Part shown: positions 7,073 to 57,400 of the stretch, piece by piece
Position numbering within the stretch: position 1 is the stretch's first letter
Layout: each line of letters starts with the position of its first letter
Assembly: GCA_030220185.1 (NCBI GenBank)
Contig: JASPKZ010007251.1
Coordinates: 880,501 to 944,500, forward strand
Direction of reading: 5' to 3'
From: Diploptera punctata
Taxonomy: Eukaryota > Arthropoda > Insecta > Blattodea > Blaberidae
DNA length: 64,000 nucleotides
Position numbers and translations under genes: made by a program
The notes under the pieces: model-generated
Database searches by the model: none
Seen by the model: the letters and a program-made list of their open reading frames with translations, nothing else
Told to the model about the DNA's origin: nothing

Positions 7073-7339
7073 TAAATGCTTTTAAAATTCATTACATAAC
7101 ACAGTTGAGATTATTGTATTATAGGTTAAAACAACAAAACTTGTTAAAAATTCCCAACATTATTATATGAAAATAAAACTTGTACTGAGAACTCAAGATA
7201 TCCTCATCTAAAATTAAGGTTATTTTAAAACACCCTGTAGACTTTACGGAACATGTTCCATCATCAGATGTTAAAAATGGTATTGAACAAAGTTTAGGTA
7301 GAATTTTTTATCACTCACCTCATATTGATCTTCTTATTT

Positions 7340-7390
7340 GACTATAAACTAGTTTTGGAACATAGTTTCTGTTCCATCCTCAGTATCGTC
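7340..7390 (-). ncRNA. Hammerhead-like copy, GAAA changed to AAAA
   Basis: It is the mirror arm of 7461-7511. CTGAGGA and both helices are kept, but the invariant G before AAA has become A, which should abolish cleavage. Confidence 0.6.
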
Positions 7391-7460
7391 ACGACCGTTT
7401 TTCAGTCTGTCGGTGGAAGGAGCGAAGGACGGCTCTTCAAGACGACAGAACAATGGTCGT

Positions 7461-7511
7461 GACGATACTGAGGATGGAACAGAAACTATGTTCTGAAACT
7501 AGTTTATAGTC
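7461..7511 (+). ncRNA. Hammerhead ribozyme candidate
   Basis: Core CTGAGGA is at 7468-7474 and GAAA at 7495-7498. Helix II is GGAACA/TGTTCT with one extra T after the core. Helix III is the palindrome ACTAGT (7498-7503), cleavage is expected after GTT at 7504, and helix I is GACGATA/TATAGTC with six of seven pairs. This is the best helix I in the window. Confidence 0.8.
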
Positions 7512-7600
7512 AAAGAAGATGATCAATATGAGGTGAGTGATAAAAAATTCTACCTAAATGAATATACCTCAAAGTGTGAATTCCTAAAATAAGTAATTGA

Positions 7601-7984: not shown

Positions 7985-8017
<33 letters not shown>

Positions 8018-14225: not shown

Positions 14226-14613
14226 AAATCTCACCTCATAAATTCAACAGTCTAAAGAAATTAAATTAAATATCAGATTAAATGTGAAGAATGTGAGAAA
14301 ATCTACATAGGAAAAACTAAGAGAAATTTGAAAACTAGAGTGAAAGAACATCTCAGGAACGTCAAGAAAGGGGAAGTAGAAAAATTGTAGTGGCTGCCCA
14401 TGCAAAGTCCGAAAAACATCTTATCAAAAAGAAGGCTAAATTATTAAAACAAATAGAAAAACCAAAATACTCACTCTTTGGGAAAAGATCTACATTCAAA
14501 GGAGCGAAAAGGAGAAATTGATGAACTTTGAAATTCCCGGGGAGAATTACCTGATATCGAGGTTTTTCAGTCTGCCAACACAGGAAGCAAAAGACGGCAG
14601 AACAATGGTCGCA

Positions 14614-14665
14614 GGGATACTGATGATGGAACTGAAATGTAAAGTTCCGAAACTAGTTTAAATTA
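14614..14665 (+). ncRNA. Hammerhead ribozyme candidate directly after PLE GIY-YIG
   Basis: CTGATGA is at 14620-14626, helix II is GGAACT/AGTTCC (14628-14633, 14643-14648), GAAA is at 14649-14652, helix III the palindrome ACTAGT, and the NUH site GTT. Helix I is weak here (GATA with TAAAT). Confidence 0.75.
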
Positions 14666-14717: not shown

Positions 14718-14766
14718 AGATGGCTGATGATGAGAGGGATGCCTCTTGAAACTGCAATTCTGTGCT
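14718..14766 (+). ncRNA. Hammerhead ribozyme candidate, ACTGCAGT family
   Basis: CTGATGA is at 14724-14730, helix II GAGAGG/CCTCTT, GAAA at 14748-14751. Helix III ACTGCAAT differs by one base from the palindrome ACTGCAGT seen at 55.7 and 35.0 kb. Confidence 0.65.
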
Positions 14767-18310: not shown

Positions 18311-18665
18311 ACTGGTCAGATTTATGTTGTACACTCTGGATGTCGATGTCAGCCCCATCCTGTGGTTGGCCAAAGAACCTCCAAACAAGGTCACGCTCCG
18401 TCGGTATTTCAAAATTCATAACACGGTTTTTGTTCTTCTGAATATAGATTTTTTTCCCAAATAGTCAAATGTATTTTGCAACTGTTTGAATAATTTAGTG
18501 TCTGGATTTATATTATGTTTTCCAGACCAAACATGAGCAGCAACTGCAGATTTTTCTACTTCCCCATTTTTAATATTTCTTATGTGTTCTTTGGTTCTAA
18601 TTTTTAGGTTTCTTAATTATATTATTTTTGGTCTGGACATCTTACCTCAATATTAATGTTGATTT

Positions 18666-18712
18666 GTTCTTGGACATGTTTCAAAACAATTCTGTTTTAT
18701 CGTCAGCTTTCC
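18666..18712 (-). ncRNA. Hammerhead ribozyme candidate (left arm)
   Basis: On the minus strand: CTGACGA at 18706-18700, helix II AAAACA/TGTTTT, GAAA at 18682-18679, palindrome ACATGT at 18679-18674, and site GTC. Confidence 0.72.
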
Positions 18713-18874
18713 CAGACTGGTTTTATTTATGTTGCACTACCTGGATGTCGATGTCAGCTCCATCCTGTGGTTGGCCAAAGAACCTCCAAACAAGGTCACC
18801 AAGGTTCTTTGGCCAACCACAGGATGGAGCTGACATTGACATCCAGGTAGTGCAACATAAATAAAACCAGTCTG

Positions 18875-18921
18875 GGAAAGCTGACGATAAAACAGAATTG
18901 TTTTGAAACATGTCCAAGAAC
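18875..18921 (+). ncRNA. Hammerhead ribozyme candidate (right arm)
   Basis: CTGACGA at 18881-18887, helix II AAAACA/TGTTTT (18889-18894, 18899-18904), GAAA at 18905-18908, palindrome ACATGT at 18908-18913, site GTC, then CAAGAAC. Helix I is reduced to one pair here, but the related copy at 19.3 kb has GTTG in the matching place. Confidence 0.72.
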
Positions 18922-19350
18922 AAATCAACATTAATATTGAGGTAAGATGTCCAGACCAAAAATAATATAATTAAAATAACCTCAAAATATAACTTCCTAA
19001 AATTAAATATTATTTTAGGTTTCTTTTTGTTTTTCCTATACATTTATTTTCACAACCCGTACATTCAATCTGATATATTCCTGATATTTTATTTTTATCA
19101 GTTTTTTCATTTTTGTTGGTTTTTATTAGTTTATTTAAACTGTAGTTATTTTTTTGGTGCTAATTTAATGTTAAACTTCTCAAATATCTTTTGGAATTTA
19201 TTGTGTACCCAAGGGTGATATGTGAATTTCCTATATTTTTCAACCACAGGATGGAGCTGACATCGACATCCAGGGTGTACAACATAAATCTGACCAGTCT
19301 GGGCAAGTTGCTGACGATGATTATGATATAATCAAAACATATTCAAGAAC

Positions 19351-21741: not shown

Positions 21742-21790
21742 CCATGACTGATGAAGGACATGATATTGTCTGAAACCGTCGGTATCAAAG
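21742..21790 (+). ncRNA. Hammerhead ribozyme candidate
   Basis: CTGATGA is at 21748-21754, helix II GGACA/TGTCT, GAAA at 21772-21775, helix III ACCG-T-CGGT, site GTA, helix I TGA/TCA. Here helix III is an inverted repeat with a central base. Confidence 0.65.
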
Positions 21791-23169: not shown

Positions 23170-23475
23170 TGAATGAATTATGCTAGGAAGTAACATTATG
23201 AGGTTCTTCTTAATAAATAAGGTGAATTTGATCATCTTACTTCATAAATACTTGATAATTAAAACATATCAAAACAAGTCAAATGAAACATCAAGTATTT
23301 ATGAGGTAAGATTGACCAAATTCACCTTAATTATTATGCTAAGGAAAACTATAGTGGGCATAATTAAGATATTTTGTCTGTGTATTCTTACTTCTTATGG
23401 TTGTTTTTTGTTGAACATATGTTTCAAGGCTTGTGAGCCCCATCATCAGCGATATCAGCAGTACAATAACTTACG
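23170..23475. mobile_element. PLE-type module, two nested termini
   Basis: A short inverted repeat (cttacttcataaatacttg against caagtatttatgaggtaag, 23225-23310) is followed by a second terminus with a minus-strand hammerhead. Confidence 0.7.
23408..23456 (-). ncRNA. Hammerhead ribozyme candidate
   Basis: On the minus strand: CTGATGA at 23449-23443, helix II GGGGCT/AGCCTT with two G-T pairs, GAAA at 23425-23422, palindrome ACATATGT at 23422-23415, then TTC. It is a sequence-diverged partner of 33813-33860 with compensating changes in helix II. Confidence 0.72.
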
Positions 23476-24407: not shown

Positions 24408-27400
24408 CTGTAGGTTAACAAAACACAACAATTAAATGTCATAATTTCCGGTTGTATAAGACGCTCCTATATATAAGATGTTTAATTTAAAATAAAATAA
24501 TATTTTTTATCTCACCTCATATCCTGTCTTGTATTTATACCAGTTTCAAAAACAGAGTCGTAAAACATCTGATGATGAAACTGCCTAGGTTTTGAAACTG
24601 GTCTAAATAGAAAACAGGATTTGAGGTGAGGTAAAAAGAATTTTATTTTAAATTTTAAAAATTCATTGGCAGTTTCTGCATTACTTTATGGGAGTGAAAC
24701 TTGGGTAATGACCAAAAAATTACAAAGTAGAATACAAAGTGTAGAAATGAACTTCCTTAGAAGAACAAAAGGCTGCACAAGAATGGATCGGTTAAAGAAT
24801 GAAGATATAAGAACAGAGTTAAATATATATTTATCCATTAAATGATAAAATCAAAGCATATAGAGAAAAGTGGTTTAGACATGTTGAAAGAATGAACGTA
24901 ACAAGATTACCAAAAGCAGCATTTAACTACAAGCCAAGAGGTTCAAGGAATGTAGGAAGCCAGTGAAAAGATGGACAGAACAACTGTGAGGTGGAACAGG
25001 CATTTTGCCTAGCCTGTGAAGTGAAGAAGAAGAAGAACATTCAATCTCGTGATTAAATGCTAATTTGAGTGCATGTTGTACAAATTGTTGAGGAATTGGC
25101 TGAATTCAAATACCTAGGAAAAATAATCACAAATAGGAATGAGATGCAAAAAGAAATTAAACATAGGCTCAATTCTGGAAATGCGTGCTATTATGCATTA
25201 CAGAGACTTTTGATGTCCCAACTCCTTTCAAAAAATGTTAAACTGAAAATATATAAAACTATTATTCTACCAGATATATTATATGGGTGCGAAACATGGA
25301 CTCTTACTTTAAGGGAGGAAAGGAGATTATGAGTTTTTGAGAATAAAGTTCTTAGGAAAATTTTTGGACCAAAGAGAGATGAACAGACAGGTGAATGGAG
25401 AAGACTACATAAAAATGAACTACATAGTCTTTATAGGAAGCCAGATATAATAAGAACAGTTAAGTCTCATAGACTGCGATGGGCAGGACATGTTGTGCGT
25501 ATGGGGAATGAAAGACATGCATGGAAGCTTCTTGTAGGAAAGCCGGAGGGAAGACGCCCGGTTGGTAGACCAAGAATGAGGTGGGAGAACATTAACTATG
25601 ATTTGAGGGAAGTAGATTATACAGGGAATGATTGGAAAGCATTAGCTCAGGATAGGGATGTATGGAGAGCTTATGTCCGCGCGGCCATGAACCTACGGGT
25701 TCGATAGTGCCAGTGAGTAAGTAAGTAAGTTGTACAAATAGTTTTTGTTAAAATGGCGATATCATTTCGCCGATTTTCTTCAGTCTCGAGATCTACCCAC
25801 TTTGCACTTTTCCTTAGTTCTTTGCACTTTTCTTAATGAAAACTGTACAATATCTCCTGTTCACACAAAGTTTTAATCAATTTTTCCATAGGCAAAGGTC
25901 TTAAATGTTTTTCAGCATCCCTATTTACAACCTGCAATTCATAACTTGAATGTCACCTGCTTTTCCCATCAAATGAAAACTGCGGGGAAAATATCAAAAT
26001 AAGCACAAAAATCTCAACATGTTAACTCAATACTGACAAGAGAACTGTCAACCATTGCATGCAGAAACCTATCTTGAAATTTCTCCCAGAGAAGTATTAT
26101 GATTTACCAAGGCAGTGTCCAAAAAAAATCATCTGCCTTTTTAACTGCAAGGCATAGAAATAAAAGCCAGAATCCAGCAATGGCAAAGCACTGTATAGAG
26201 CAGATGGACTCCCTGCATGAGTAAGAGCAGAGTGAAATTAGGTAGGACGTGGCACAGATGGCAGATAGTGAGGGTTATCCAATCTACCAATTCAGGTGTT
26301 GTTATAGTTTAAATGAAAGATTTGGTTAAGTTATGTAGGTAGAAAATAACACTATGAGGTTTATTTTAAGTCCCGCGCCGTAGCCGAGCGGTTAAGGTAG
26401 GAAGCCTTGGCACAGAGCTACGGGACTTGCGCTGGTTCGAGTCTCCATGGGGGAAGAAATTTTCTCATGGTATTTCAGCCAGTATGGGACTGGTGCCCAC
26501 CCAGCATCGTGAGGCAATTGGGTTGCTACAATAAGTAGCGGCTCCAGGTTGAGGAACCAGCTACAACGACTGGGGGACTCGACATGCTAACCACATGTCA
26601 CCCCTACACTGGCTGTTGATCATCTACCTCTGTGATTGACACATGTGGATGTGAAGGGCCAGCAGCCGGCTGGTAAAAGGGCAACCGCTGAAAAGAGGAA
26701 AGACCCTCAATCGGAATCGGTTTATTTTAATATTGTTTAGTTGTTTCTTGACTCACCACATACTTCTTAACTCCCAAGCAGACTCGAGTTTCTTCACTTC
26801 ATTTGTGATATTCTCAATATTGTATTATGTGAGGCCATTGGACATCAGTTGTGAACGTAATACAGTATTGAGAATACCACAAATGAAGTGAAGAAATTCG
26901 AGTCTGCTTGGGAGTTAAGAAGTATGAGGTGAGTCAAGAAACAACTAAACAATATGAAAGATTTGGTGCTGGATTTTAATGCCTTACAGTTAAAAACAGC
27001 AGATAATTTTTTGGACAAGACCTTTGTACATCACAACACTTCTTTGGAAGATATTTCAAGGTGCATGCAATGGTTGACAGTTCACTTGTGAGGAACTTTA
27101 TACCAATTACAGATAAGATACAGAATTTAACTTTTACAGGAATTAATCACTATGAGGTTTAATTTATGGTAAAATCAAATGTTTCCTACCTCACCTCATA
27201 TAAATCTTCTAAGTATATTGCGATTTCGAGACCATAACGGTCTCATCTTCAGTACTATATTGGCGACTGATGTTATATCGAGGGAAGAAGAAGAAGAGTT
27301 TCTTCTGATTGACATAACATCAGTCGCCAATATAGTACTGAAGATGAGATCATTATGGTCTCGAAATTGCGATCTACTTAGAAGATTTATATGAGGAGAG

Positions 27401-30400
27401 GTAGCAAACATTTGATTTTACCATAAGATACAGAATGATTAAACTTGGATAGGAAAACATTCTAAAGTGCATAGTACATCATTTCCCTAACAACAGTCAA
27501 AATTAATGACTTACTTCTGGGTTTGCTAGGAGGCCTCCTCTGGCATCGAGCAGCCATTCTTGCAAGTTGTCTTGCTGTCGGAGGAAGTTCTAAGCCATCC
27601 TGTCTATCTTTCGCAACTAATCGTCGTTCCTCTGCCATTGCATCCAACCAACGTCGCTTCTCTTCTGCTGTCCGGCAGCAGAATAGAAGCCATTTATCTC
27701 GAACACAACTGTAAACCTTCAATCCATGCCGAACCATCACTCCTAGCTGTGGGTCTGAAATATAATACATTCACCATTTATGCCCAATACTCTCATGCTA
27801 TGTAAATCAAGAGATTCCCATATGATCTGGAGTCTGTAAGTAGCAATGGGAAGTATATTTGTATGTTCCATACCTATACATACACACGTGGAGTAAGGGT
27901 GCTCATTTGTATGAGCTGCTTAACCAAATGAATTTGTTGTTTCATAAAACTTATGATGGGAATTAACATAATGAACTTTCAAATTAATAAAATGAGTCTT
28001 ACATCATCTCACCTCATACTCCATGTTTTTTAGAGCACAGGACCGCAATTTCAGGAACAATCATTCCTATCTTCAGCAATCTTACTGACTGAATTTTTGC
28101 CTTCACCACCATCTTGTAAAACTGCCATCTAGTGTTGATTTGATGAACTTTGAGATTAAATCTTGCTCTCTGGGAATTAACAGTTTGGGAAAAGATATAC
28201 ATTCAGAAGAAAAAAATTAGGTCCATGAATTTTTAAATTCCCAGCGAGCAAGATTTAATCTCAAAGTTCATCAAATAAACACGTAGATGACAGTTTAGAA
28301 GAATATGGTGAAGGCAAAAATTCAACAGTCGATAATGACTGTTCCTGAAACCACAATCCTGTGTTGTGAAAAGCATGGAGTGTATGAGGTGAAATGATGT
28401 ATGACTTATTTTAATTTTATTACATGCTTTATATTAGCTTGACCTGTATCTGTCTATCTATGTAACAGAATCTTTCAACACGATTTTCACCCACTTAAAA
28501 ACATTGGATCGATTTGAAACTTTGTATACTTATAAAGGACCAATGACAATACAATAATTTCATAAATTTTTTTCTAAGGTCCTGGCCAGGATCATCAGGA
28601 CATCAAAAAAATAAAGATCAGTATAATAGGTTGCGGACTTATGGACTTTTTAGTTCATCGTTGTAAGAAATTAATATTATATCCTCTGGTAGCTCAGTTG
28701 GTAGAGCGGTGGACTGTAGTTTCTATATAAATTTCAGTAATCCATAGGTCGCTGGTTCAAATCCGGCCCGGAGGATTTTTTTTAAGAAGAGTATTACTTT
28801 TAGCTCATACTACAATAGTATCGAATTTAAAGATATTTACATTTTTATCTTATTCTGTAAAATATTAATGACAATTTTGTAAACTTACCACTTTGTAATT
28901 TATCCAAAAAATATGAGAAGAATACGATTAACTATAAGTATTTATCTATATTAAAATATTCAAAAATATTATAATAATGTTAGATAATAATAATTTAAAA
29001 AAAATATATTATTATATTCGTGCCTAGACACTAAAAATATCGTAAGCAATTAAATTTTCATGGGATTCCGGTTTATGATAATCAATTAAACTAAAAATTA
29101 AAAAAATAAATAATAGTTTAAAAAAAACTAAAACAACACGCTTTATTAGAAAACCAAACTAAAAAATAAATAATAGTTTAAATCAACTAAAACAACACGC
29201 TTTATTAGAAACACCGACTTAAAAAATGAAAAATAATTTTAATTTCCAACACGCTTGGGATAAAATTAAAGTGGTCAACAAAAAAATCATCTCCAACACA
29301 TCTAGAATAAAACTATAGTTATCTACAAAAAAAAAATAATTTTACCTTCAAAAGTGTGGGGCGCTTTTTATGGTTTTCCCGTTTTCTTCTTGGAGACTTT
29401 ACTTTTACCAATATCTGTTTATTATCAAATATATTAATTGATATAGATCACCCCACGCTTTTGATGGTAAAATTATTTTTTTTGTAGATAACTCTAGTTT
29501 TATTCTAGATGTGTTGGAGATGATTTTTTTGTTGACCACTTTAATTTTATCCCAAGCGTGTTGGAAATTAAAATTATTTTTTAGTTCGGTTTTCTAATAA
29601 AGCGTGTTCTTTTAGTTTTTTAAAACTATTATTTATTAATGTTTTTATTATTGATTTAACATTTCTCACTGAAAGATAAATTATATTTGAAGAGAAAAAT
29701 TTTTGCCTAGACCGAGACTCGAACCCGGGACCCTTGGCTTTCCGGGGCCAAGTGCTCTACCAACTGAGCTACCGAGGCGAGTTACAATCTAGACGCAAAT
29801 TTTTCTCTTATATATGTTGTAATTCCCTATCACCAAATGCTTTTGAAACCATTGCTTCTATCTTTGCAAATGGCGGCTTCTTAGTTAAGAAGACATTTTT
29901 ATTGGGAATTTAACATTACTTTATAAAGCTAGTAAGGCTTCTAATGATGTTTTTATTATTGATTTAACATTTCTCACTGAAAGATAAATTATATTGCAAA
30001 GATAGAAGCAATGGTTTCAAAAGCATTTGGCGATAGGGAATTACAACGTATATAAGAGAAAAATTTGCATCTAGATCGTAACTCGCCTCGGTAGCTCAGT
30101 TGGTAGAGCACTTGGCCCGGAAAGCCAAGGGTCCCGGGTTCGAGTCTCGGTCTAGGCAAAAATTTTTCTCTTCAAATATAATTTATTATTTATTAACTTG
30201 CTGTTATTGTCTAATGCTTGACATTTCATGAGGTTAGAAGTATAGGGTTCTATCTACATTTTTTTATATTTCTTGTTTTCCAAATTAAATGGTTAGGAAT
30301 AAATTCTATAACAAAATTCCATGTTCTGTCCACAATGTTTATAATCTCTGAGTATTGTGCAGTTAATCATTAGTATACACACCTTATCCTACATTTGAAC

Positions 30401-33400: not shown

Positions 33401-36400
33401 AAACATAATTAAGAGGTTTGTTTAATAATTAGAACATTTTGTCTGTTCATTCTTACTCTTAGAGTTGTTTTTGTCGAACATATATTTTAGATTATATTAT
33501 TTTTAGTCTGAACATCTTACCTCAATATTAATATTGAGGTAAGCTGTTCAGACTAAAAATAATATAATTAAAATAACCTCAAAATATAACTTCCTAAAAT
33601 TAAATATATATTTTAGAGCTTCTTAGCCCCATTGTCAGCGATTACAGACTGAATTTTCTCATGTTGTTGGCCCTGATTTTTTATTCCTGCTCTCTTTGCC
33701 TCTGGTCCAATGAAATTACTAATAAGGTTTCTTTCTGCAGGAATTTCGAAGTTCATAATTCTTTCCTTGTTCTTGAAGAATCAGGGCCGAGAACATGAGA
33801 AAATTCAGTCTGTAATCACTGACGATGGGGCTAAGAAGCTCTGAAACATATGTTCGACAAAAACAACTCTAAGAGGTAAGAATGAACAGACAAAATGTTT
33901 TAATTAAGTCTGGGAAAAGTTATGTTGTTGTTTTCAAATGCTGGGCCTTGGCAATAAAGCCAATTAGCGTTCTTGCTCTCCAATATTTCTCTATGGTGGA
34001 TCCAACAGGTAATACTTCACAGGTTTGTAGATGTTCTTCATTCATTTCTTCATCTTTGTTGCATAGAGGACAATTTGGATTAGTGTAGATTCCTATCTTA
34101 ATATATAAAAATTACGTGTCACATTGTTTGTCCGCGATGGAATCCTAAACTACTGAACCGATTTTAATAAAATATATTAATATTAATTTCGTGTGTATTA
34201 GTTTTAAGTAATCTGGCTGAAAGACAGCAACTTAATTTAAATTTAACTGGACCGAGAAGGGACATTGAACAATATGGCGAATCAGTTCTAGAGACCATGA
34301 ATTATAAGATATCAAGTGAATTTCCGCAAATTGGTATAGGCCTATGTGACATAAATCTTACATTTCAGAAGAATGCCAATTTAAGAACATATGAAGGTCC
34401 TAAGGAACGGAATAACAGAACTGTAAGTAAGTCTGTTAGTTATAATAATATGCCTAATATTACAGAAACAATCTCCATGCCTCAATTAAATGAAAAACAA
34501 GATGATTATAATATATCACAATATATTACTATACAGAGACTTCTTGATGATGATGAGAATCCAAACTGCCAACAAGTTCGTAGAAAAAAATGAAAGTATA
34601 ATGAAATCAGCAAGCCTCTCTCAAAATATTCCATCAATAAATGTATATAATCCTTATGATACACTTATGGATGATACTGAGAATGCAGACAACATAAATC
34701 ATCAATCAACAAAACCAGGAAAAGATGTACATTCATAGTTTATTAGAGAATCATAGAATTGAAAAAGAAGCTAAACTTTTGAAACATCTATCTAAACCTT
34801 TGGAATTAACAGTCTGGGAATAGATATACATTCAAAAAACCATACGAGAACTATGAATTTTTGTTTCCGGATGAATCAAATTTAATTACAAGGTTCTTCA
34901 AATTAACACCAAATGGTAATTTAGAAAAAAACCAGCATATTGAAGAATCAACAGTTGTGAAAACAGTTAAGGATGGGAATGATGTTTCCTGATACTGCAG
35001 TTCTGTGTTAAAAAACGTAGATGTATGAGGTTAGAAGAATTCATGTTTCATTTGATTTTAATGTAAAGTTTATTGGATTTGATAACTTCTTGGGTAGAAA
35101 AAGTAATGAATTTATTTACCTCCCAACCCTCCACTCGCTGCTGCCATGCAGCAAGTTTTTCTAAACTCTCCATACGTCTTTTCCTCTCGTTGATGAGAAC
35201 TGCTACATTACGCATAGCTTCCAGTGCTTCCCGAATTTTTTCATAATCTGGATGATCAGCCTGAAAAAAAAGGAGAGAAATTTCTAATTAAAACAGATCA
35301 TCTAATATAGCAGAAAACAATCCTATAAAGAACTAACATTCTTAAATCTGAAGGTAGTAGAAGAGTGGGTGGAACCAAGATTTGAGATAGATGGTGGATG
35401 GAGAATCTTAAGAAGTTAAAGAATGGAGAAGGTCTTTGGACAGCGACAAATAGAGAAAATTTTCACAGCAGATGGGCCCAAAATAGGCTGCAGTGCTATT
35501 TGTATTATTATTATTCTTATTATCATCATCATCATCATATATCATTTTGAATTAAATTTTTACTAGAAGTATAGGATTTTCATAAATGTTGCATATTTGA
35601 CTACAAACATAAACTTACACAAGATCACGTTTCTGAAAACTATTCTTTTTCTTTAATCAGTAAATGAATTAGATTTTAAATCTGATGTTATATTTTATAT
35701 TCTTTTTAGGATTAGTTTCAAGGATTTTTCCTCATTGTCAATTGGCATCTGACTGTTAATTTGACAGTTGGTATTCCTTTACTTCTTCCTCTGTTGATGG
35801 ACTAATGAACCACCAAAATGAATCTTTTTACTGGAAAATTTCAAAATTCATTTTTTTTTAAATCTTGGACATAGATTTTTTTCCCAAACTGTGAGTTCTT
35901 TAGATGTCTCCAATTGTTGGAAAAAAAAAAGACAAAATAATTAGTCATATTTGAAGAGAAAAAAATATACGCTCAGACTGGGACTCGAACCCAGGACCTT
36001 TGGCTTCAAGTCCCAGTCTGAGTGTATAATTTTTCTCTTCAAATGTGATTTGTTTATCATTGAGGTGTATGAAATGAACAATAAAAACTTTGAAAGAAAC
36101 CACACTGGCTTTATAATGTAATATAAAATTCCCAAATAAATGTCTTCTTAATAAAGAAGCCGCCATTTGCAAAGATAGAAGCAAAGGTTTCATAGCATTT
36201 GGTGCGCAGGAATTGACAACATATATAAGAGAAGAATTTGTGTCACTGCCATGCAAATCTTAACAAATAACCCAAACATAGCATCTGAAATTGAGAAAAC
36301 AGCAGTCACACAGTATGAAAAATTTTTAAGGCTACCCCATAATAACTGGACTCAAAGAAAACCACAAGTATGTTTAAAATCTCAGCAAAGCTTCCTAAGC

Positions 36401-39400
36401 ATTGTACAAGAAATCAAACAGAAATTGCAACTTCCACATTCAAAAGAAAATATGCAGATGAGAAACAACCCTCTAGAATTTTTGGAAATCGAATATAACC
36501 TTCATTTAACAGAAGACATCAAGAAATCTGAAACTCCTCCATATATTTTAAAACAAATGTCACTGGAAATAATACATCTAAGATACCCAGCTCCTGAATG
36601 GATACATATTTTTACAGATGGCTCCAGCCTACCAAATGACGGTGGCACTGGTGCTGGTGCAGTATGTCCACTTTTTTCCTTTTATCGTAAACTAAACACA
36701 AATTCAACAAACTTTGATGGCGAAATTCTAGCAATTTTCTTAAGTTTACAAAATCTTTTATATCACATCCAAAAATTTACAAAAGTTGTAATTCTATGTG
36801 ACTCCAAAGCAGCCATTCTTGCTATAACACGAGACACAACACCCAAAAGCATCAAAATTATCGAATGTCACAAAATGATAAAACAGTTATCCCGTCTACA
36901 TAAAAAAGTTGTACTTCAATGGATTCCGGCCCATTGTGGAGTGACAGGCAATGAAATAGCCGATTTTCTAGCCAAGAAGGGTAGCAAAATTGTTTCAAAC
37001 CCAACTTCTGCTCCAGTTTCCTTTCACTCTATCAAAAGAATTATCTCAAATAAATACATCAATAAACTTAGAGAAGAATACACCATCAAAACATCTGGAA
37101 AGGAATGGGAAAATCTACAAGCTTATGACATTACTACATTACAAAGAAAATCCGCAGTAGCAACATTCAGACTGCTAACGGGACATGACTGCTTGAATAA
37201 ACACCTACACAGAATTGGCATAACAGATTCACCTAAATGCCCTTTTTGCAATTTAAATGAAGATATGGAAAGAAACCATCTCCTCCGTTGTCCAGCTTTT
37301 GTAGAAGAGACCAGCCTTTCTGCTAAATATTGGAGTGCAAGAGAGCGAATGATTTCATTATCAAGTGCTCGACATTAGATACCAACCAACCAACCAGAAT
37401 TTGTGTTTAGATTGGAACATGCCCAGATAGCTCAGTCGGTAGAGCATTGCTCTAGAAAGCCAAAGGTCTTGGGTTCGAATCCCAGTCTGAGTATATAATT
37501 TTTCTCTTCAAATATGATTTATCCATCATTGAGATGCATGAAATGAATAATAAAAACATCAAAATAATTAGTGTTGTGAAATACGCATGGAAAAAGATTT
37601 AATTTGGAGATTCATTGGTCCGCCAATAGAGGGAGGAGGAGTAAAGAAATACAAACTGTTAATCCTATGGTCAGATGCCATGTCAGACAATCGGAAACTA
37701 GTCCTGGAAAGGATAAAAGTATGAGGTGAGGTGTAATTTCTGATTCATTTAATGATTGTTTAATAAAACTTTATAGTGTTACTTCCTAAAAATATAAACC
37801 TTTTTCTTTAGTTTGGATTACAGGAACAGGGGCTCCATCCTATTTTGGTTTATGGGGCCCCATTTAATGATTGTTTAATAAAACTTTATAGTGTTACTTC
37901 CTAAAAATATAAACCTTTTTCTTTAGTTTGGATTACAGGAACAGGGGCTCCATCCTATTTTGGTTTATGGGGCCCCAGGGAGTTAAGCGCCCCTGCCCAT
38001 GTGATCTGTATAGTGGAATTAATGGGATGATTAGGAGTTCAATTCCTCTGGGATGCGTCACATTGTGTACTGCTCATGAGGATATTCTTGTGTTGCATGG
38101 CCATACACCCAATTGCAGACATATATAAATAAATGGCTGAGATTTATTTTGAGAATCTAGTGCCAAAAAACAATATAAAATTAAGAACTGAATAGTTACC
38201 CTAACTCACAAAAATTCAAAAGTTGAGATTTTACTGGATTAGTGATATATCTGAGAATATCACAGCATGATGCATGTAAAACTATCTCTGCTCTCTTCCA
38301 GACCCGTTTTATTTATTTTTAAAAGTTGGCATTCAAGTGAATAGTGACCTATATGTAACAAAAATGGCAGAAGAAGTTAGTCAAGTCAAGAGTAGCCTTT
38401 AAGGGTTAGATCTGTTTACGGGACAACTATTCAATTATGCAAGATAACATCACAAAATGAAATCAGATGAAGTGAGAAGAGCAGTGCTCCTGTATGATAG
38501 AACATTGGTCGTATAATTACTGAAGATTTAACAACTAAGGTTACAAAACTGGTCTAATTAGAAGACAGGATATGAGGTGATGGAGTAAGAACTAGTGCTC
38601 CACTAAGGTTATGAAACTAGTCTAATTAGAAGACAGGATATGAGGTGATGGAGTAAGAACTAGTGCTCCACTAAGGTTATGAAACTAGTCTAATTAGAAG
38701 GCAGGATATGAGGTGATGGAGTAAGAACTAGTGCTCCAATAAGGTTATGAAACTAGTCTAATTAGAAGACAGGATATGAGGTGATGGAGTAAGAACTAGT
38801 GCTCCACTAAGGTTATGAAACTAGTCTAATTAGAAGGCAGGATATGAGGTGATGGAGTAAGAACTAGTGCTCCACTAAGGTTATGAAACTAGTCTAATTA
38901 GAAGGCAGGATATGAGGTGAAGTGGAAAGAATTTTATTTTGAATTTTAAATTAAATCTCATAGCGATATTTTCTATCATAATTCAATTTATTTTTTTTAT
39001 TTTTTATTATTCTTTTAACATTGGTTTTTTTTAAGGGCTACTAAACACACATTTTGTCACTTACATTAAAGATAAAAAATGTTTAAAAATCGGGATTTTG
39101 AACCCAGGATCTGTGGATCTCCGTTTCAGTACTTCATCCATTAAGCTAATATATAAGTGACAAATTTAATATAAGTGAGGAATTGAAATAGGAAAATTGC
39201 AAATATGTGCTTTACTAGCTAAAAAAAATGTTAAAGGAATAAAAAAAACGGAAATATTTTACAACATGTGACATGAAAAATTTTTCTAAGTTCCAATCAT
39301 ATACCATGCACATGTGCCAACAGACACAAAGTGGTTATACTATGGAATCATAGGATGCAGCCAACATATACAAAATATTTAACAAACCTAAAAGTTAACC

Positions 39401-45400: not shown

Positions 45401-48400
45401 GATGTCCAGGATCTCATTGTCCTCTTGGTTTATACGACAGAATTATTTTTGGTATGGTATTCTCCTATTGTCCATTCTTTCCAAATGATCCTTTCATTTA
45501 TGTCTATATTCATTTATTTTTTTATTTATTGCAATTATATTAAATTTAGTTTATTTATTTATTTTTTTAATGCCCCCAGTTTGTGTCCTTTTAGACATTT
45601 CTGGTGTTCTCTCCTGGCAATGGCATAATTCTAACCCACTTCTGAGGTGGGGCACCTGGAAGGCAGGGTTACGTTGCCCCGATGATATGATGGGTGATGG
45701 TGATGATAGTAGTGTGCCAGGAGAGCCCCTAATCCTAAGCTTAATCTAAGATGAATATCAATGAGGCCATATGATTTCGGGGATCGTTTGGGCCTTAAAG
45801 TTTTCTTGACATTTGTCTTACAGGTGAGGATAAACCCCGATAAAAACCTCACCCAAAAAAACTGTCCTGACCAGGGATCGAACCCGGGCCCGCTGCGTGA
45901 CAAGGCAGCACTCTACCTCGAGACCACAGCAGTGGACTATTTAGTTTATTTCTAATTTCTTGGTTTTTTTATTTTATCTAATTTTTTACATTCCAGTAAT
46001 GATAAGTATAGGTTGTGAATGAAAAATATAAAATTAAACTTTTGCCAATTGAAATGAATAGGTATTTGAAAGAAGTAAAAGAGTATCAAATTGCAAAAAA
46101 AATCAAGAATGAAGAAATTAGGAGATGGATGGAAGCAGAGGAAAATGTGATAGAATTGAAATGAGGGAGATACATTGATTTGGACACCTAATAAGGATTC
46201 AACAAAAATTATGGTCTAAAAAGATCTTTCAATGAACACCAGCTGGAAAGGAGTGGGAAAACAAAATTATGGTACTAAAAAATTAAAGAAGTTGTTTGTT
46301 CAAAGGGATTTCAAGAAGAAAAGGATGGAGATTGAGAATGGGAAGGCACCTTCAGCTGCAAAATCCCTGAATAATAATAAAAATTGTATCATAAAATTTT
46401 ATATTCCGTCTTCGAAAAATAATGTTATGCTTATGATGGGAACTTCTGAAAAGAAGTCTTCCCAGTTATATTATATGGATACGAAACATGGTCTCTTACT
46501 TTAAGGGAGGAAAGAAGATTACATGTATTTGAGAATAAAGTTCTTAGGACAATTTTTGGACCAAAGAGATGATCAGAGAGGTGAATGGAGAAGACTTTCA
46601 TAACACGGAGATTACAAGTATTTGAGAATAAGTTCTTAGAAAAATTTTTAGACCAAAGAGATATGAACAGACAGGTGAATGGAGAAGACTTCATAACAGT
46701 GAGCTACATTATCTTTTTTGAGAACCCAGATATAATAAAAACAGTTAAGTCTCGTAGACTGTGATGTGCAGGACATGTGGCATGAATGGGAAATAAAAAG
46801 GTGCATGGAAGCTTCTTGTAGAAAAACCAGTGGGAGAACACCCAGTTGATAAACCATGAATGAGGTGGGAGAATAACATTAACCACGATTTGAGGGAAGT
46901 AGATTATATAGGGGATGATTGGAAAACATTAGCTCAGAATTGGTGATATATGGAGAGCTTATGTCCATGCAGCCATGAACCTATGGGTTCGATAGAGCCA
47001 GTGAGTTAGTTAGGGTTATGATTGAACTTACCTCAGCAACGTCCCTCAGTATCTTGACAAAATCTCTTTCTGTGTTGATGAGTTCTCGCACCACACTAGA
47101 ACGCACTTGATCATTGCTCAGGAGAGAAATGCTAGTTCTTCTCCTCAGCTGTGAGCTGGGGGTTGAACCAGATGCCATGGCTGCCAGACAGTCTTCAACT
47201 GTGTCTTCCTGACTCACTCGAAGCTGCAGCAAAAACAATTACTTCCATTATGAAAAATAAAACCCTACATATGCCTATCTGTTTGTGTGTTCAATCCCAC
47301 CCTACTGAATTTTCTGCTTTGGGTTCTGCACTCAATGGATAAATGTCAAATTATGTGATCTGTTTTCAATTTATTTACCATGTTTAATTTTTTTCATAAA
47401 ACACAAACAATACCTTCATCTTATTTAAAGTATATTTAATTGTTATAATTAGGGCCTGGATATTTAATTACTTGGGTTGTAATTTAACACTTCAAGATGA
47501 AGCTGATATATCAAAGAAAATCACAGATTTCACAAAAACAACGGGGATAATTAACAGTATAATGAAACCATCTTTAGTACAAAAGAACACAAGATTATGG
47601 CTTTATAAGGTTCTCGCAAGACCAGTATTAAGATATGGAAGTGAAGCATAGACAGTATGAAGAAGAGATGGAAGCTGAATAACAGCAAATGAGATGCAAT
47701 TTATGCGCCATACAGCAGGCTACACAAAGAAATGAGTAAATTATGGAAGAGAAATTACCAGAACAACTGGAAAGACTATCTTCAATGAATGTCATCTCAT
47801 AGAATACCAAAAGCCATGCTTGGGTTACTGCCCCCAAGGCAAAAAATTGCTGCGATGTCAAAAAAAGCGCTGGATGGAAAATTCCTCTTTGATATATACA
47901 TGAGTTGGAGAAAATGATTTCATATCTTACCTTAGAAAATTCTGTGTTTTCATGATACCGGTTTCAAGATCATTTTACCTTCATCTTCAGTCAAACTCCA
48001 ACTAAGAATGTAAACAGAATTTTATGAGGTAAGATATAAAAAACATTTTCTCCAGCTTATTTATACAGGGCTTCCAATATAAAACCGGACACGCCTCACG
48101 GGGTTTCACCCGTCAGGCAGCGCTCTCTCCTCGTCCGCATTTCACTCTGCCAGCCGCAGAGTGTCCGGTTTTATACTGGAAACCCTATATATTGAAAATA
48201 ACTTAGTGTATGTTTATTAACAAAAAATGATCCTCTCTGTATGGCATATATTCCTAAAAGTTGTCATAAGATCTTGCAATGTCCTGTATGACCAGGCAAT
48301 AGATGACCCACTGTGTAAAGTATTAAAGTCAGTATACAATGTAAATAATGAATACTTACCCTTACAAAAGCTGCAGGAAACCAGCCACTGTCTTCTCCTC

Positions 48401-51400
48401 TAGAGCCCACCACCAGTCTCGATCAACAGTATCTAGCACCTCGATAACATCACCTGCTCGGAAAGCCAGTTCTTCTGGTTCCATTGCTACGTGGTCCCAC
48501 ACTGCCTCAGCAAGCACCGCCACATCTTCATCCATTGCCTGATAAATAAATTATTATATGGAAATTAATCCTTCTAGTCTGTTAACTATAGTTAGGACTT
48601 TTTTTTCTGGTGTATGCAATCTATAATGGCATAGCTCAATGTTGAGCCATAGCCTCTCCTTTGTTAGGAGTTACTAGACCAAGTTTTAATAATTGTATAA
48701 CAGTACCTGATATCTCAGTCGTCTTCAATAATTTGCAGTGTTGTTTTATAGGAGGCCTTTCGATAACTTTTGTATCATCTTCTGCTTTCATTTTGGTACT
48801 GAAGACGATACATAAGTTATTGAAAGGCCTCCTATAAAACAACACTGCAAATTATTGAGGACGACTGAGATATTAGGTACTGTTATATAATTATTAAAAC
48901 TTTAACACAGTAACCTCAATGGAGTTTCATAATGCATTTTAAAAACATTGATTACTAGACAAAGTTAATTTGTATTTGAAGAGAAAAATATACACTCAGA
49001 TGGGGTTTGAACCCAGAACCTTTGGCTTTCTATGCTAATGCTCTACAAAATGAGCTACCTGAGCACACCAATCTAAATGCAAATTTTTCTCTTATACACT
49101 GTTAATTCCTGAGTGCCAAATTCTACATACCTTTGCCCATTCAAGCAAATGGTAGCTCCTTTATTAAGAAGACTTTTTTATTGGCAATTGGCACTTGGGA
49201 ATTAACAGTGTATAAGAGAATAATTTGTGTTTAGATTGGAGTGCTCAGGTAGCTCAGTTGGTAGAGCATTGGCATAGAAAGCCAAATATCTTGGGTTCAA
49301 ACCTCAGTCTGAGCATATATTTTTTCCTCAAATATAATTTGTCCTTCATTGAGATGTTTTAAATTAATAATAAAAGCATCACAACATAATTTAGATACCT
49401 TATTTGCCCATAGGTGTCACGAATGGCATGTGATCAACATACTGACTCAATGAGACATCTAGCAGATAATTAAAGTATTACTAGGATGTTGAGATAGGTA
49501 AATTTGCTTAGAGGCCTTTTTATTCAGGCTTAAGGATCTTTTATGAACCTGAAAATCTTCAGACTTGGGACCCATGGCTTAAAGTCCCTCCTGAAGAACT
49601 TGCTCCTTGGATTTTTCCATCCCAAAAATCCATTGATCCTGGCTGGGTTTGAACCCACGACCCTCGGGATCAGAGGCAAGAAGAATAACCACTAGTCCAC
49701 CAGGACTGATGATGTATGCAGTCCTGTATAAATTAATATCTTAGGTCATGTCTGTTGTTCAGACATAAAAATCCATTGATGGTCAGTGAATATGTGATGT
49801 TTTAAAAGTTTTTGTGCATTTTAGTAGTTTACATTTACAAAAAAATTTGTGGACCATCATTTAAAGAGTGTATTTAAAACCAGTACAATGTGTAAAGAAA
49901 ACCAAATTTACCTGCTCAAAGGACTTTTTCCTTTCGGTGAGAGATGCAATGGATGACTCAGAATCTGACATCATGTCATCATCTGATGTTCCGGTTCCTC
50001 CTCGTCCGTCGTGTTCATCTTCGCTTAGAACTGTATTCGAAGTCCTTGCAACTATAGGCATGCCACCTGGCTTTCGACGCATTAGTGGTGACAGTTCGTT
50101 TAATCCTAGAGGTTGACTAATTGAACGACGCAGTTGAGGTCTTCTTGCTCTTCGTTTAGAGCTGCTGAAAAATATTACTAATTAATTTAATTATAAACTA
50201 TATCATCATCATCATGTCATAGGTATAGTCTACAAACAAATTTTGGCTATTCTAGACAAGATTAATTAATAGCTTTAGCTTCTCAATATTAATTTAATAA
50301 ATAATGCTATAGCTGTGTGGAGTCCCTTCATGTCTTCTTCAGGTAGAAGCCATTCATTGTGTATTTGTGAATGATGATTCATTGCAATTGAATGTGGGAC
50401 CAGTAGAGTAAGGTAAAGGAAGGATTTCTGCTTGGATGGGAATGAAGCCTGGATTAGCTCAGTGGTCTGAGCATTAGCACGGAAAGCTAAAGGTTCGGGG
50501 TTCGATTCCTGGTTCAGGCAAAAATTTTTCTCTTTACCTTTGATTTACAATAATTTAATTGTGTTCATTAATTTACTTATTTCTATCATAGTAATAGCTT
50601 TAGCTTCTCAATATTAATTTAATAAGATTAATTCATTTTGTTTTTTTTTTTAGTTTCTGTTCGGCATTTGCAACCATATGTTAGAACTGGTCTTATGACA
50701 GATTTGTAAATTCTGACTTTTGTTTCTATTCTTAAATTTTTATTTTTCCAAACAGTATTGTTTTATGATAAAATCAAATGTTTCCTACCTCTCCTCATAT
50801 AAATCTTCTAAGTAGATCACGATTTTGAGACCATAACGGTCTCATCTTCAGTACAATCTTGGCAACTGATGTTACGTCGATTGGAAGAAACACTTCTTCT
50901 TCCCTCTGTTGGTGGACTGATGACCCTCTGGATCAGGTCAGGATTTGCAGGAATTTCGAAGTTCCCGCAAATCCTGACCTGATCCAGAGGTTCATCGGTC
51001 CACCAACAGAGGGAAGAAGAAGTGTTTCCTCCGATCGACATAACATCAGTCGCCAAGATTGTACTGAAGATCAGACTGTTATGTTCTCGAAATCGCGATC
51101 TACTTAGAAGATTTATATGAGGAGAGGTAGGAAACATTTGATTTTATCATAAATTAAACCTCATAGTGATTAATTCCTGTAAAAGTTAAGAAAAAAAAAT
51201 TGTTTTATTTTATATATATATGAGAGTTTAGTGTAAGTGAAACAGGGAATAACTTACTTCCTGAGTGTAACTGCATCAGTATTAGTAGGACGAGGTGGAC
51301 TAGTGCGTGGAGGACGCATCTTGATGGGTGAAGGTGTAGAAAACATACGTCGGTAGCTGTTACGTACGTCCCAGTTGAATAATCTCTGACCACCCAAGTC

Positions 51401-54400
51401 AGAATGTGTCCTCCTCACTTGCTGGTGACGGTTCTGCACCCGAGTCTGTAGATCAGCCTGTCAACAAAACACTGCATTGTGTAAGTAGTAGTAAAAAATA
51501 GCCTCTCTATTTGCATTTGGCTTAAAGCTAGGTTCAGTCTATAATTTTTATTATTATTTTTATATTTATATTTTTATATCCTTATTATTATTGTTGAGGA
51601 GGTTTATTTAGCATGTAGCACTCAACATAGTATAGATCTCTCGAAAGAGGACCCTGAAACATCGGACTTCCCCTCAGGGGTTCTCATCTAGGGGATATGT
51701 AGATGGCGACCACAAGGTGCCCAAGCTGTGCAAAACATTTCTTCCACTTACTTGTGTTTTGCACTCTTTTAACTTGACTATCTAACCTCTCTTGGTTAAC
51801 TCTTGTTTTTTTGACGCCAATGCTATTAGGGCATCCGAGGGCTAGGGAGTCTTTCCTTTCTTCCATTTCTTCTTTCCTTTAGTTTCTTTTCTTCTCCAGA
51901 AAAGCCTGACCAGAGGCTATAAGATGGCAGCCCATCACTGGTCTTGCCTTCCTTTGGCCAGCAACCAATCGAAGGGACTATTATTATGCTTTCAAGTCTT
52001 ATACGAGAATTTCCCTCAAACGCTGGAGGGAAAATTTTCTATAGGATCGTAACAGGCCTTGGCCTAATACTTGGAAGGAAGAAGAAGAAGAAGAGGAGGT
52101 TTAAGTTATATTTTTGGTTGTGACTATATATCTTTCGGTCTTATTATGTTAAGATTGTGAATTTGTGTTTTAATAATTCTTGCTCATATTATTGAAAGTC
52201 TATAATATACACAGATATCAGTTGACCAGGCCTGTTGCATCACCACAGAGACAGATGAAATTAAACAAAATGAATGACTGAACATGAAGAAGTTTTTTGG
52301 CAAGAGAGAATGGGAGGAATACGGAGGAAAACATAGTTCCTATTCACCCACCATGAACAACAAATCACATCTGATTGAAGGAGAACCACTAGAGTGTGGA
52401 ATTTTCCTAATACTTTTTTTTAGAAAATTCAAGTTCAAATTTGTTTTTCATACTGGTGTGATTTCTTTCTTTGCCAGTCTATCTGCCATTTAATTTTCTT
52501 CTAGGTCAGTGTGGCCTGGTATTCGCTGAAGATTACTCCTTTGTTTTGTTGACTAATATTGTAGATCTACTATTATTTTTAAATGTTCATGGAAATATTC
52601 ATAAATGATGGGAAACTATTTACATTTCCCCTCCTTCGAAGTTAATATAAATTATTCTGAGAATTCATAAATATTATGAAGCAATGCAAGGAAATTATGT
52701 AAAATGCTCCACATTGCTACAACATCCTTTTTTCACTTAAACATATAAATTCCAAGATTCATTTATGTTACTTCAGATGGAAACATTAGAAAAGAGGTTC
52801 TTGTAAGGGTCTCCACACTACCCATTAACTAAACTAACTAACTCACTGGCACTATCGAACATAGAGGTTCATGACCGTGTTGACATAAGCTCTCCATACA
52901 TTCCTATCCTGAGCTAATGTTTTCCAATCATCCCCTGTATAATCTACTTCCCTCAAATCATATTTAATGTTATTCTCCCAATTCATTCTTGGTCTACCAA
53001 CTGGGAGTTTCCCCTCTGGTTTTCCTACAAGAAGCTTCCATACACGTCTTCCATTCCCCATTCATGCCAGTCTATGAGACTTAATTGTTTTCATTATATC
53101 TGGCTTCCTATAAAGACCATGCAGTTCACTGTTATGTTGTCTTTTCCATTCACCTGTCTGTTCATCTCTCTTTGGTTCAAACATTTTCCTAAGAACTTTA
53201 TTCTCAAATACTCGTAATCTCCTTTTCTCCCTTAAAGTAAGAGTCCATGGTTCTTATCCATATAATATGACTGGTAGAATAATACTTTTAATATATTTTC
53301 AGTTTAATGTTTTTTGAAAGGAGTTGGGATGTCAAGAGTCACTGTAATGCATAATAGCACGCATTTCCAGAATTCAGCCTATGTTTAATTTTTTGCCTAT
53401 TGCTAATGTTAATACAAATATATATTTTACAATCTATTAAATGGATTTGATTCAAGTTTTTAGAGGATATTTAATAAGTCCTTGTGTATAATTAAACATA
53501 AGGATTATATATAAGGATTTTTCCAAGAAATAATAATAATAATAATAATAATTATTATTATTATTATTATTTCATTATTATTATCATTATATTTGAATAT
53601 AAAATTATTTTCAAAAAATTACAAAAAATATAATAGTAGTAATAGTAATAAGTGTCGGTCCTGGTGGACTAGTGGTTATGCTCCTTGCCTCTGGTCCCGA
53701 GGGTCATGGGTTCAAACCCGCTAGGATGGTGGATTTTTGAGGAAGGGAAAATCCAAGGATCAAGTCTTCTGGGAAGGACTTTAAGCCATGGGTCCAGAGT
53801 CTGAAGATTTTCAGGCTCGTAAAAGATCCTTAAGCCTGAATAAAAAGGCCTCTAAGCCAAATTTACCGATCTCAACATCCTAATAATATCTTAGTTCCCT
53901 GCTAGATGTCTCATTGAGTCAGTATGTTGACCACATGCCATTCATGACATCTATGGGCAAATAAGGTAACTAAATTAGCTTGATCTAGTACCTCTTAACA
54001 AAGTAGAGGCTATGGCTGAACATTGGGCTGTGCCATTATAGAATAGTAATGAGTCCTTCCACTCCCTGGTGGAACATAGAGCCTTAATGAGAGATCTCCA
54101 TCTGACATGAATTAATGATTAGGTTCAATTTTCTGGCCTCTGCAGCAACCGCAAGGAGAAGTCTCAATAGCAATGGTATAAAGTCCTATCGAGCTACCAG
54201 GAAGATTAGGTTGGATGATGAGCAGATCATAGATTGTCTAGCCTTCGCTTCTACTCTAGAGGACTTCAATTAGAGCAATGCAATATTCTCCTATGAAGCA
54301 ACAATAATTAATTAGTGAATGTACACTTATAAAACAAACGGAAGAGAACATAAAATTTAAGAAATTCACTTACTATCCATTGAAACACCATAAGTTTAAA

Positions 54401-57400
54401 AAAAAATTTAAAAAGTTTAACTTTAGGATTGGCACCGAAGAATGAATACAGCCACAATAGGATAATTAAAACCAACAAAAATGAAAAGAATTGAAGAAGA
54501 AAACAAATCAGGAATTTATCAGATCAAATGTACAGATTGTGGAAAAATTTATATAGGAAAAACAAAAGGAAATTTAAAAACAAGGGTGAAAGAACATCTT
54601 AGAAATGTCAAAAATGGTGAAGTGGAAAAGTCAGCAATAGCTGCTCATGCTTGGTCTGAAAAACATCTAATACAAAAGCTAGTTTAATTAAACAAATAGA
54701 AAAACAAAAAGAACAACTCATAGTTTGGGAAAAAATTCACATTAAAAAAAAACAAGAAAGAAAAACTTACGAATTTGAAAATTCCCGGGGATTTTGATTT
54801 GATCCAGAGGTTCATAGGTCCACCAACAGAGGGAGGAAGAAACAATTCTGCTGATCAAAATAACATCAGTTGACAAGAAATTACTGAAGATGAAGCTGCC
54901 AAAGCTTTGAAACCGGTATAATTAGAAGACTGGATATGAGGTGAGGTATAAAGCATTTTAATTTACCATATTTTATGGACTATAAGACGCACTTTTTTCT
55001 TTGAAAAATTGCCTCCAAAATTCAGGTTCGTCTTATACTCGAAATGAATATAAAAAGTCTAGTGTTTGACTTAAAATTCCTGCCAGTTTTAAAAATGGCC
55101 ATATATTTGATGTAGCAAGAATTATCTCTATATGGCAATATTGAATTCAACTGGCAACAGCAGTGCACTGAAGCGATGAACATGAGTTGCAGGGATTCAG
55201 AAGCTTGCTAATGCTGTCTCCCTCCTGCCCCGATATCACAAACCCAGAACAGTGTCTAGCCAATGATGCGTCATTGCAGTCTACAATGCCAGTGAATTTG
55301 AACAAATGGATGATGGATGAAAACCAACGTGAATTCACACCGAAGGGAGCTTTAAAACGACATACAATCAAACAAGTGTGTCAGTGGATAAAACAGTTGT
55401 GGTCTAGAGTGAGAGAAGACATTATTGTTAAATCTTTCAAGAAATGTGGCATAAGTAACACTCTCGATGGCAGTGAAGACCATCTTATATATGAAGAGGA
55501 CAATGATGATGAAGAAGAAGGAAGTTAAGATGATGATTTTCAGGGGTTTTAAAAGATCAGAACGGTTTTATAAACTAAGATTTTTTTAACATAATAAATT
55601 TGGGAATTTTTTAACATTATGAGGTTTTATTGATAAGAATCAAATTAATTGTGAATTCTTCTTACCTCATACCTCTATGTTTTTTAAACACAGCACTGCA
55701 GTATCGGCGATCATCATCACCATCATCAGCTGTTTTCATGACTGTCAATTTTTTCTTTTGCCCATAATTATCCAAACTGCCATCTGGTGTTCTTTTGAAG
55801 GAGATTCTGGTCAAACCAAGCTTGATTATAAAGTTCTTCAAAAATACAACAGATGGCAGTTTAGAAAATGACACCTTCAAAAGAACACCAGATGGCAGTT
55901 TGGATGATTATGAGTAAAAGAAAAAAATTGACAGTCGTGAAAACAGCTGAGGTAAGAAGAATTCACGATTCATTTGATTCTTAAGATTTTTTTTTTGTTT
56001 AGTCTGGCTTTGCAATCTAATAATAAAAATAGTAAAAATGTTATCTTTTTAAAAAAATTGCTTAAAAATTAAGGTGCGTATTATAGTCCATAGCATCTTA
56101 TAGTCCGTAAAATATGGTAAATTTTAAATTAAACCTCATAGTGATTTTTCCTATAAAAGTTCAATACCTCATAGCGTTCATTCCTTGAAAAAAGTAATTT
56201 AAAGACAACTCAAGTCTAAAAGGAAAAATGTTAATTCAAAATGAGTCTAATAATAAGAAAAATATGAGGTGAGAGATAAAATTTTACAAAAAAATGATAA
56301 TAATAATAGTAATCATTGTAGTTTGTGAGTAAAAACAGAGAACTTGGGTTCAATTCCTCATCCAGGCAAACATCCTTCTTATTTGAAGAGAAAAATTATA
56401 TGCGCAGACTGAGACTCGAACCCAGGACTTTGGCTTTCTGGGCCAAGCTCTACCGACTAAGCTACTGGGGCGAATTAGAATCTAAATGCAAATTTTTCTC
56501 TTATATACGTTGTAAATTCCTGCACACCAAATGCTATGAAACTTTTGTTTTTGTCTCTGCAAATGGCGGCTTCTTTATTAAGAAGACTTTTTTTTTATTT
56601 GGGAATTTTTATATTACATTATATGCCAGTACGGCTTCTTTCGATGTTTTATTATTCATTTCATACATCTCAATGATGGATAAATCATATTTGAAGAGAA
56701 AAATTATACGCCCAGACTGAGGCTCGAACCCAGGACTTTGGCTTTCTGGGCCAATGCTCTACCGACTGAGCTACTGGGACGATTTACAATCTAAACGCAA
56801 ATTTTTGTCTTTTATCCATCATTGAGATGTATGAAATGAATAATAAAAACATTGAAACATCCTTCTCTTCAAAAAATGATTTATTGATCAATCTAGGTGT
56901 ATAAATTTACATATAACACCCTAATCAAGTCAGTATTGACCTTGAACCCTCTATACAGTGTCCATGAATATTGCAGTATTGACTAGTTGAGACATCAGAT
57001 AAATTAGCATACTAATATTGACACTACCATACATTGCATTATGCTTCTGATAATGAATCACTATCTATCTATTTATCTATACTAGAGGTCGCCCAGCAGT
57101 CGAAATTCGACCACAATTCATTAAATTTTTAAGAATGTCACAAAAACGTCATTGTGCATTAATTTTCAATTTATTCTAAAAATATGAACGATAAGAAATA
57201 TGTGGTATAGCTTGGCTAAGCCATATTTGATAAACAATAACACATCATTTGACATTTATATACTATTTAAATTTGCATTGCCTATTATTATGTGTACGGA
57301 AATATATTATATCTTTTCTTTGTCTCTCACTCCAACCCGTCAATGTTCTATGTCGAGGCATAAGGTGCGAATATCTAAATATAAAAAGAAGTAATTAAAT

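Follow-up and report, generated by a model that had tools for sequence, protein, structure and literature searches.

Minimal hammerhead ribozymes of Penelope-like elements (PLEs) were described by Cervera and de la Pena in 2014 and by Lunse, Weinberg and Breaker in 2017, according to the parts of PMC7761336, PMC6466107 and PMC6155905 that cite this work. In the corresponding passages of PMC7761336 and PMC6466107, which cite Lunse et al. (2017), these ribozymes are said to act as dimers, to have a palindromic loop on stem III and to need a tandem arrangement, while their role in PLEs is still termed a mystery in a passage of the 2020 review (PMC7761336). The present analysis concerns a 64,000-nucleotide stretch of the genome of the cockroach Diploptera punctata (assembly GCA_030220185.1, contig JASPKZ010007251.1, positions 880,501 to 944,500; hereafter, the window), which very probably holds minimal type I hammerheads in the pseudo-long terminal repeats (pseudo-LTRs) of approximately nine old, GIY-YIG-bearing PLE lineages, with cleavage presumed to have been that of a double hammerhead in tandem transcripts.

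Hammerhead cores and their helices

Copies of the hammerhead core were detected with the pattern CTGANGA-N8-30-GAAA and are named here by the position of C3 and the strand. This pattern returned 22 rows from the 64-kb window against 4.8 expected, a number to which none of 100 shuffles rose, and reading of the flanks led to 16 of the 22 being judged genuine hammerhead cores in which CTGANGA, GAAA and the NUH triplet are intact. The six rows dropped at this step represent five sites (9287-, 17082-, 25765-, 58181+ and 28558/28571-, the last being two rows at one site). When a helix II of at least 4 bp was required and helix III was left free, 14 matches were obtained, compared with 0.17 on average and at most 2 in 100 shuffles, 47990- and 51064+ being lost under this requirement; a stricter descriptor combining core, helix II, helix III and NUH found 13. 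The hammerhead motifs are thus confirmed as real and well formed, and the 16 intact cores and 14 matches with helix II bear out a first-pass annotation of this DNA, which had proposed at least 13 candidates. With helix III assigned by hand, U16.1 is followed by A, C or T at position 17 in all 16 intact copies. These are given below from the core to H17, each having been found by pattern and descriptor unless flank reading is indicated in place of the latter.

7468..7504, + strand: lineage A, helix III ACTAGT
14620..14658, + strand: lineage A, helix III ACTAGT
14724..14759, + strand: lineage H, helix III ACTGCAAT, one mismatch
18673..18706, - strand: lineage B, helix III ACATGT, inverted partner of 18881
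18881..18914, + strand: lineage B, helix III ACATGT
21748..21784, + strand: lineage C, helix III ACCGTCGGT, nonpalindromic
23414..23449, - strand: lineage D, helix III ACATATGT
24569..24603, + strand: lineage E, helix III ACTGGT, helix I unpaired
27216..27252, - strand: lineage G, helix III ATCGCAAT
27338..27374, + strand: lineage G, helix III ATTGCGAT
28041..28076, - strand: lineage H, helix III ATTGCGGT
33819..33854, + strand: lineage D, helix III ACATATGT
47956..47990, - strand: lineage F, helix III ACCGGT, helix II shorter than 4 bp (pattern and flank reading)
48799..48831, + strand: lineage I, helix III AGGCCT
51064..51100, + strand: lineage G, helix III ATCGCGAT, helix II without its outermost pair (pattern and flank reading)
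54884..54918, + strand: lineage E, helix III ACCGGT

A search allowing one mismatch in the core yielded 20 further rows, seven of which were recognized as decayed members (369-, 499+, 7383-, 18298-, 48784-, 50851- and 55729-), the remainder being taken as chance. The family had been placed between positions 7273 and 56165; members do lie within this span, but the decayed copies 369- and 499+ extend beyond it. Decayed copy 55729- has the palindrome ACTGCAGT and is not expected to cleave, because its A14 is changed and position 17 is a G. CAGAAGA replaces CTGAAGA in three copies (48784-, 499+ and 369-), and as this change is common to them, lineage I may have lost U4 before spreading.

Helix II displays covariation across the copies. 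It was assessed on an alignment (A3) of 18 copies, from which 18706 (the same as 18881), 18298, 48799 and the decayed copies 48784, 499 and 369 were omitted, and it was the only helix counted there because MAFFT misplaced lineage D at helix III. In this alignment, 93.5% of helix II cells are paired and 32 cells carry a double change, compared with 9.9 in shuffled data; for both measures, as for further pair types and the covariation score, none of 500 shuffles was as high. Sliding the helix II partner by one to three columns lowered pairing to 20 to 55%. For helices I and III, 21 copies were counted by script from fixed anchors. Helix I in register is paired in 57 of 84 cells, as opposed to 23 to 38 at eight other offsets; at least three of its inner pairs form in the majority of lineage A, E, F, G and C copies and in two of the three copies of H.

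The helix III segments are palindromic in most lineages, an exact palindrome being present in 8 of 9 lineage representatives compared with 79 of 1,082 GAAA sites; the associated probability of 7e-9 applies to one chosen copy per lineage, with lineages set by eye and with lineage H represented by a decayed copy, the one whose palindrome is exact. A less selected count gave exact palindromes in 8 of 14 strict copies and in none of the shuffles. All of the helix II pairs and helix III palindromes quoted in the first-pass annotation are present in the window, whereas its view that such palindromes cannot form a hairpin is correct for those of six bases but not for those of eight, in which a 2-bp stem with a 4-base loop is possible. 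Upon energy folding of ten monomers and their dimers, the helix III self-duplex was present in the dimer minimum in six of the ten copies. Because helix II has undergone compensatory change, and because the palindromes differ between lineages yet have stayed palindromic, we infer that the motif was under selection while the lineages diverged.

A covariance model (R2) built from eight training copies, which belong to lineages E, F and G, and searched without filters, gave 16 nontraining matches at an E value below 1, every one of them either a copy from lineage A, B, C, H or I or a unit of a 68-bp tandem array that adjoins a training copy (listed below). Five of the six held-out lineages were recovered at this level, mostly weakly; the best nontraining match had an E value of 7e-05, and the others ranged from 0.012 to 0.64.

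Carriers, proposed mechanism and rival explanations

Features of the flanking sequence support the view that the carriers of these hammerheads are the 5'-truncated ends of decayed PLEs. Four pieces were tried against the GIY-YIG family PF01541, and two, each located upstream of an intact core, scored above the Pfam cut-off. The remaining pieces, 18419-18616 and 19013-19159 (minus strand), are GIY-YIG-like by eye and gave no PF01541 match, and a protein search with a 73-residue GIY-YIG piece returned no candidate. Several copies are, furthermore, arranged as fold-backs with long and nearly complementary arms. The features in question are as follows.

14265..14387, + strand: open piece with the GIY-YIG endonuclease domain of PLEs, 233 nt upstream of 14620 (PF01541, E 3.2e-07)
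54466..54684, + strand: open piece with the GIY-YIG endonuclease domain of PLEs, 200 nt upstream of 54884 (PF01541, E 8e-08)
7293..7558: lineage A fold-back; its two arms of 115 nt are 94% complementary
18594..18993: fold-back whose two arms of 192 nt are 95% complementary, each with an outward-reading lineage B core
27164..27426: lineage G fold-back; its two arms of 116 nt are 93% complementary
48681..48902: lineage I fold-back; its two arms of 102 nt are 94% complementary
50762..51153: lineage G fold-back without spacer; its two arms of 196 nt are 93% complementary
38520..38920, + strand: decayed lineage E core at 38520, then the 68-bp tandem array (window 38534-38920)

Of the 18 copies examined for inverted similarity within 700 bases, 13 showed it; in 10 copies it reaches past the edge of the core to take in some or all of it, and in 6 it is complete from -20 to about +88, the copies with no detected inverted partner being 14620, 21748, 23449, 54884 and 38520. 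The copies also share a 3' boundary: of 90 copy-to-copy alignments, which are not independent of one another, 45 break off 85 to 94 nt beyond C3 and 14 break off 105 to 134 nt beyond it. The GIY-YIG domain upstream of two copies, together with helix II covariation, the palindromes and the ranking of held-out lineages, upholds the earlier suggestion of minimal, possibly dimeric hammerheads of PLE type.

The ribozyme most likely acted as a double hammerhead in tandem transcripts. According to this proposal, an intact element would be transcribed as a tandem, in which the palindromic helix III segments of two hammerheads would pair as a single continuous helix. The resulting double hammerhead would cleave after the NUH triplet and so reduce the transcript to unit-length pieces. 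The copies in the window would represent 5'-truncated insertions, often head to head, perhaps generated via self-priming. They extend approximately 50 nt beyond the cut site to a common end, presumed to mark the start of reverse transcription on uncut RNA; because they continue past the cut in this manner, the RNA that was copied had presumably not been cut at that site. The fold-back at 50762-51153 folds at -323.6 kcal/mol, compared with a shuffled mean of -96.65, and copies of this type are probably silent because their transcript would form one long hairpin.

A number of observations weigh against this proposal. Only one held-out match of model R2 has an E value below 0.01, and the model misses lineage D (23449 at an E value of 3.2, with 33819 not listed). 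In the search with Rfam hammerhead models, which the first-pass annotation had recommended as a check, no match was obtained in the whole window even at E values up to 10, nor in a piece of 151 bases surrounding 54884; the suspected reason is the very small stem III together with the extra nucleotide described below. Covariation had been anticipated in helices I and II, and it held for the latter, although the number of helix II pairs with any double change is not unusual (208 of 500 shuffles as high), whereas helix I proved weak: with one copy per lineage, 24 of 36 cells are paired (permutation P = 0.043), and the helix is almost missing from lineage D, from lineage B apart from 18298 and from copy 24569. 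Lineage C lacks a palindrome, and helix II hairpins combined with a helix III duplex formed the dimer minimum in just 2 of the 10 copies folded (33819 and 54884). No two intact copies of the same lineage lie near each other on one strand, the nearest being 7468 and 14620 at 7 kb; the window has no close tandem pair of intact same-lineage motifs, intact copies being single or inverted. Finally, the hammerhead of the Anolis PLE (PAc) is described in the relevant part of PMC11167929 as not cleaving without the protein of the element and as dispensable for insertion.

That the copies are inherited relics, derived from PLE ancestors with active hammerheads but neither now nor recently selected for cleavage, is somewhat probable in its own right, as many are decayed (7 of the 20 one-mismatch rows are recognizable members), the arms of fold-backs would pair with each other (-323.6 kcal/mol at 50762-51153) and helix I is weak in some lineages. 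The compensatory changes in helix II and the palindromes that differ between lineages nevertheless require selection while the lineages diverged; as the relic explanation concerns the present state of the copies, it is compatible with double-hammerhead action in the past. Retrozymes, i.e., nonautonomous tandem repeats whose hammerheads yield small circular RNAs, might be suspected from the 68-bp array, which holds part of a hammerhead, and from the one close direct pair of cores (14620 and 14724, 104 nt apart). This pair, however, belongs to two lineages (A and H), the units of the array comprise just the 3' portion of the hammerhead plus its downstream flank and have no CTGANGA, GIY-YIG coding pieces lie beside the motif, and published animal retrozymes are 150- to 450-bp tandem repeats in the account given in part of PMC7229834, whereas the window offers only the 68-bp array; such an origin is considered very unlikely. 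Least credible is an accidental likeness to hammerheads in fold-back DNA elements or microRNA-like hairpins: although the inverted arms are long and weak matches to microRNA families, below gathering scores, occur at several fold-backs, core plus helix II is some 80-fold above chance, the motif is kept in members with no detected inverted partner (5 of 18 tested) and helix II covariation is local to the motif.

Double-hammerhead action in PLE transcripts, then, is the explanation that we favor. At this one locus, with approximately nine lineages, helix III changed yet mostly stayed palindromic, which constitutes an evolutionary argument for dimeric action, and PLE hammerheads overlooked by Rfam can be recognized from sequence alone.

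The extra nucleotide and other features of the window

Between A9 and helix II, the copies have one additional residue. De la Pena and Flores are said to have reported, in 2001, a viroid hammerhead with an extra residue at the same place; that case is a single viroid, whereas in the window the residue is a U in 17 of 18 aligned copies, and copy 48799, outside that alignment, has a C. The extra residue creates an ATG in 13 of the 19 copies listed, situated at A9 and approximately 28 to 33 nt upstream of the cut site by hand count; the frame opened by this ATG spans 4 to 34 codons, with a stop inside the first 20 in 12 of the 13 copies. Downstream there is a site resembling a 5' splice donor, with exact GAGGTRAG in 10 of 19 rows of a second alignment (A1) and GTRAG in 14 of the 19, the other five differing by one change; its GT falls 21 to 28 nt beyond the cut site (ten copies, hand count). 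In lineages G and H, the frame from A9 comprises 16 to 18 codons and terminates at the TGA of TATGAG, which overlaps a second ATG (as ATGA) directly before the donor-like site, this frame end being found in copies 27338+, 27252-, 50851-, 51064+, 28076- and 55729-.

Introns reportedly occur in PLEs, as Arkhipova and colleagues are said to have noted in 2003, and we infer that splicing may proceed from the donor-like site. It is conceivable, though improbable, that the core, the A9-U-G start codon and the donor-like GAG|GTRAG form one switch in which palindrome-driven RNA pairing sets the choice between messenger and template. If this were true, cleavage would separate the start codon from the exon downstream and forestall splicing, such that each transcript would become either messenger or template. 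The role of the PLE hammerhead could be tested by way of the additional U, the ATG and the donor-like site.

Other repeats are also present. Between positions 7872 and 59943, 24 tRNA-type matches above the Rfam cut-off occur at 24 places, many of them inverted or tandem, and ARAGORN lists 20 tRNAs, 13 of which have a Ser anticodon; these matches are probably tRNA-derived short interspersed nuclear elements. A 305-bp tandem array (32317-33411; 3.6 copies, 98% matches) contains a tRNA-like match in every full unit. A 399-codon open frame at 36179-37378 encodes an RNase H domain (PF00075, E 3.6e-18) and is perhaps the end of a non-LTR retrotransposon.

Comparison with known systems

The kind of hammerhead found here is already described for PLEs, and it is the set of lineages that is new. 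As represented in the papers that cite them, the published minimal variants share with the window copies the type I core, an almost absent stem III, a palindromic stem III loop and a location in PLE pseudo-LTRs, while the window differs in its new lineages, in that the required tandem arrangement is not seen and perhaps in the extra nucleotide after A9 of the aligned copies. The first-pass annotation had regarded the number of subfamilies as unusual, a view that is not supported: more than 6,000 type I motifs in 16 families are reported for a coral genome in a section of PMC7229834. The same source, in the part concerned, describes the satellite hammerheads of newt and axolotl as having a weak stem III and a palindromic loop and as efficient only as dimers; in these respects they are similar to the window copies, but they sit in 330- to 350-bp tandem repeats and not at PLE ends.

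With regard to whole elements, genomic copies of Anolis PAc end, in the account available from part of PMC11167929, at internal reverse-transcription start sites with a tail, a likeness to the copies of the window, where, unlike in PAc, the frame from the ATG is closed before its 21st codon in 12 of 13 cases and the splice-donor-like site follows. The presumed copying of uncut RNA at this locus would fit the finding, in that same part, that PAc insertion does not need hammerhead cleavage. In Adineta vaga, the text of PMC3846280 does not mention hammerheads (0 occurrences), but the Penelope copies described in its relevant portion have head-to-head inverted pseudo-LTRs, palindromic junctions and an optional 31-bp tail. 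By analogy, the inverted arrangement and shared 3' ends of the window copies appear to resemble the inverted pseudo-LTRs and optional tail of PLEs as depicted in these parts of PMC3846280 and PMC11167929.

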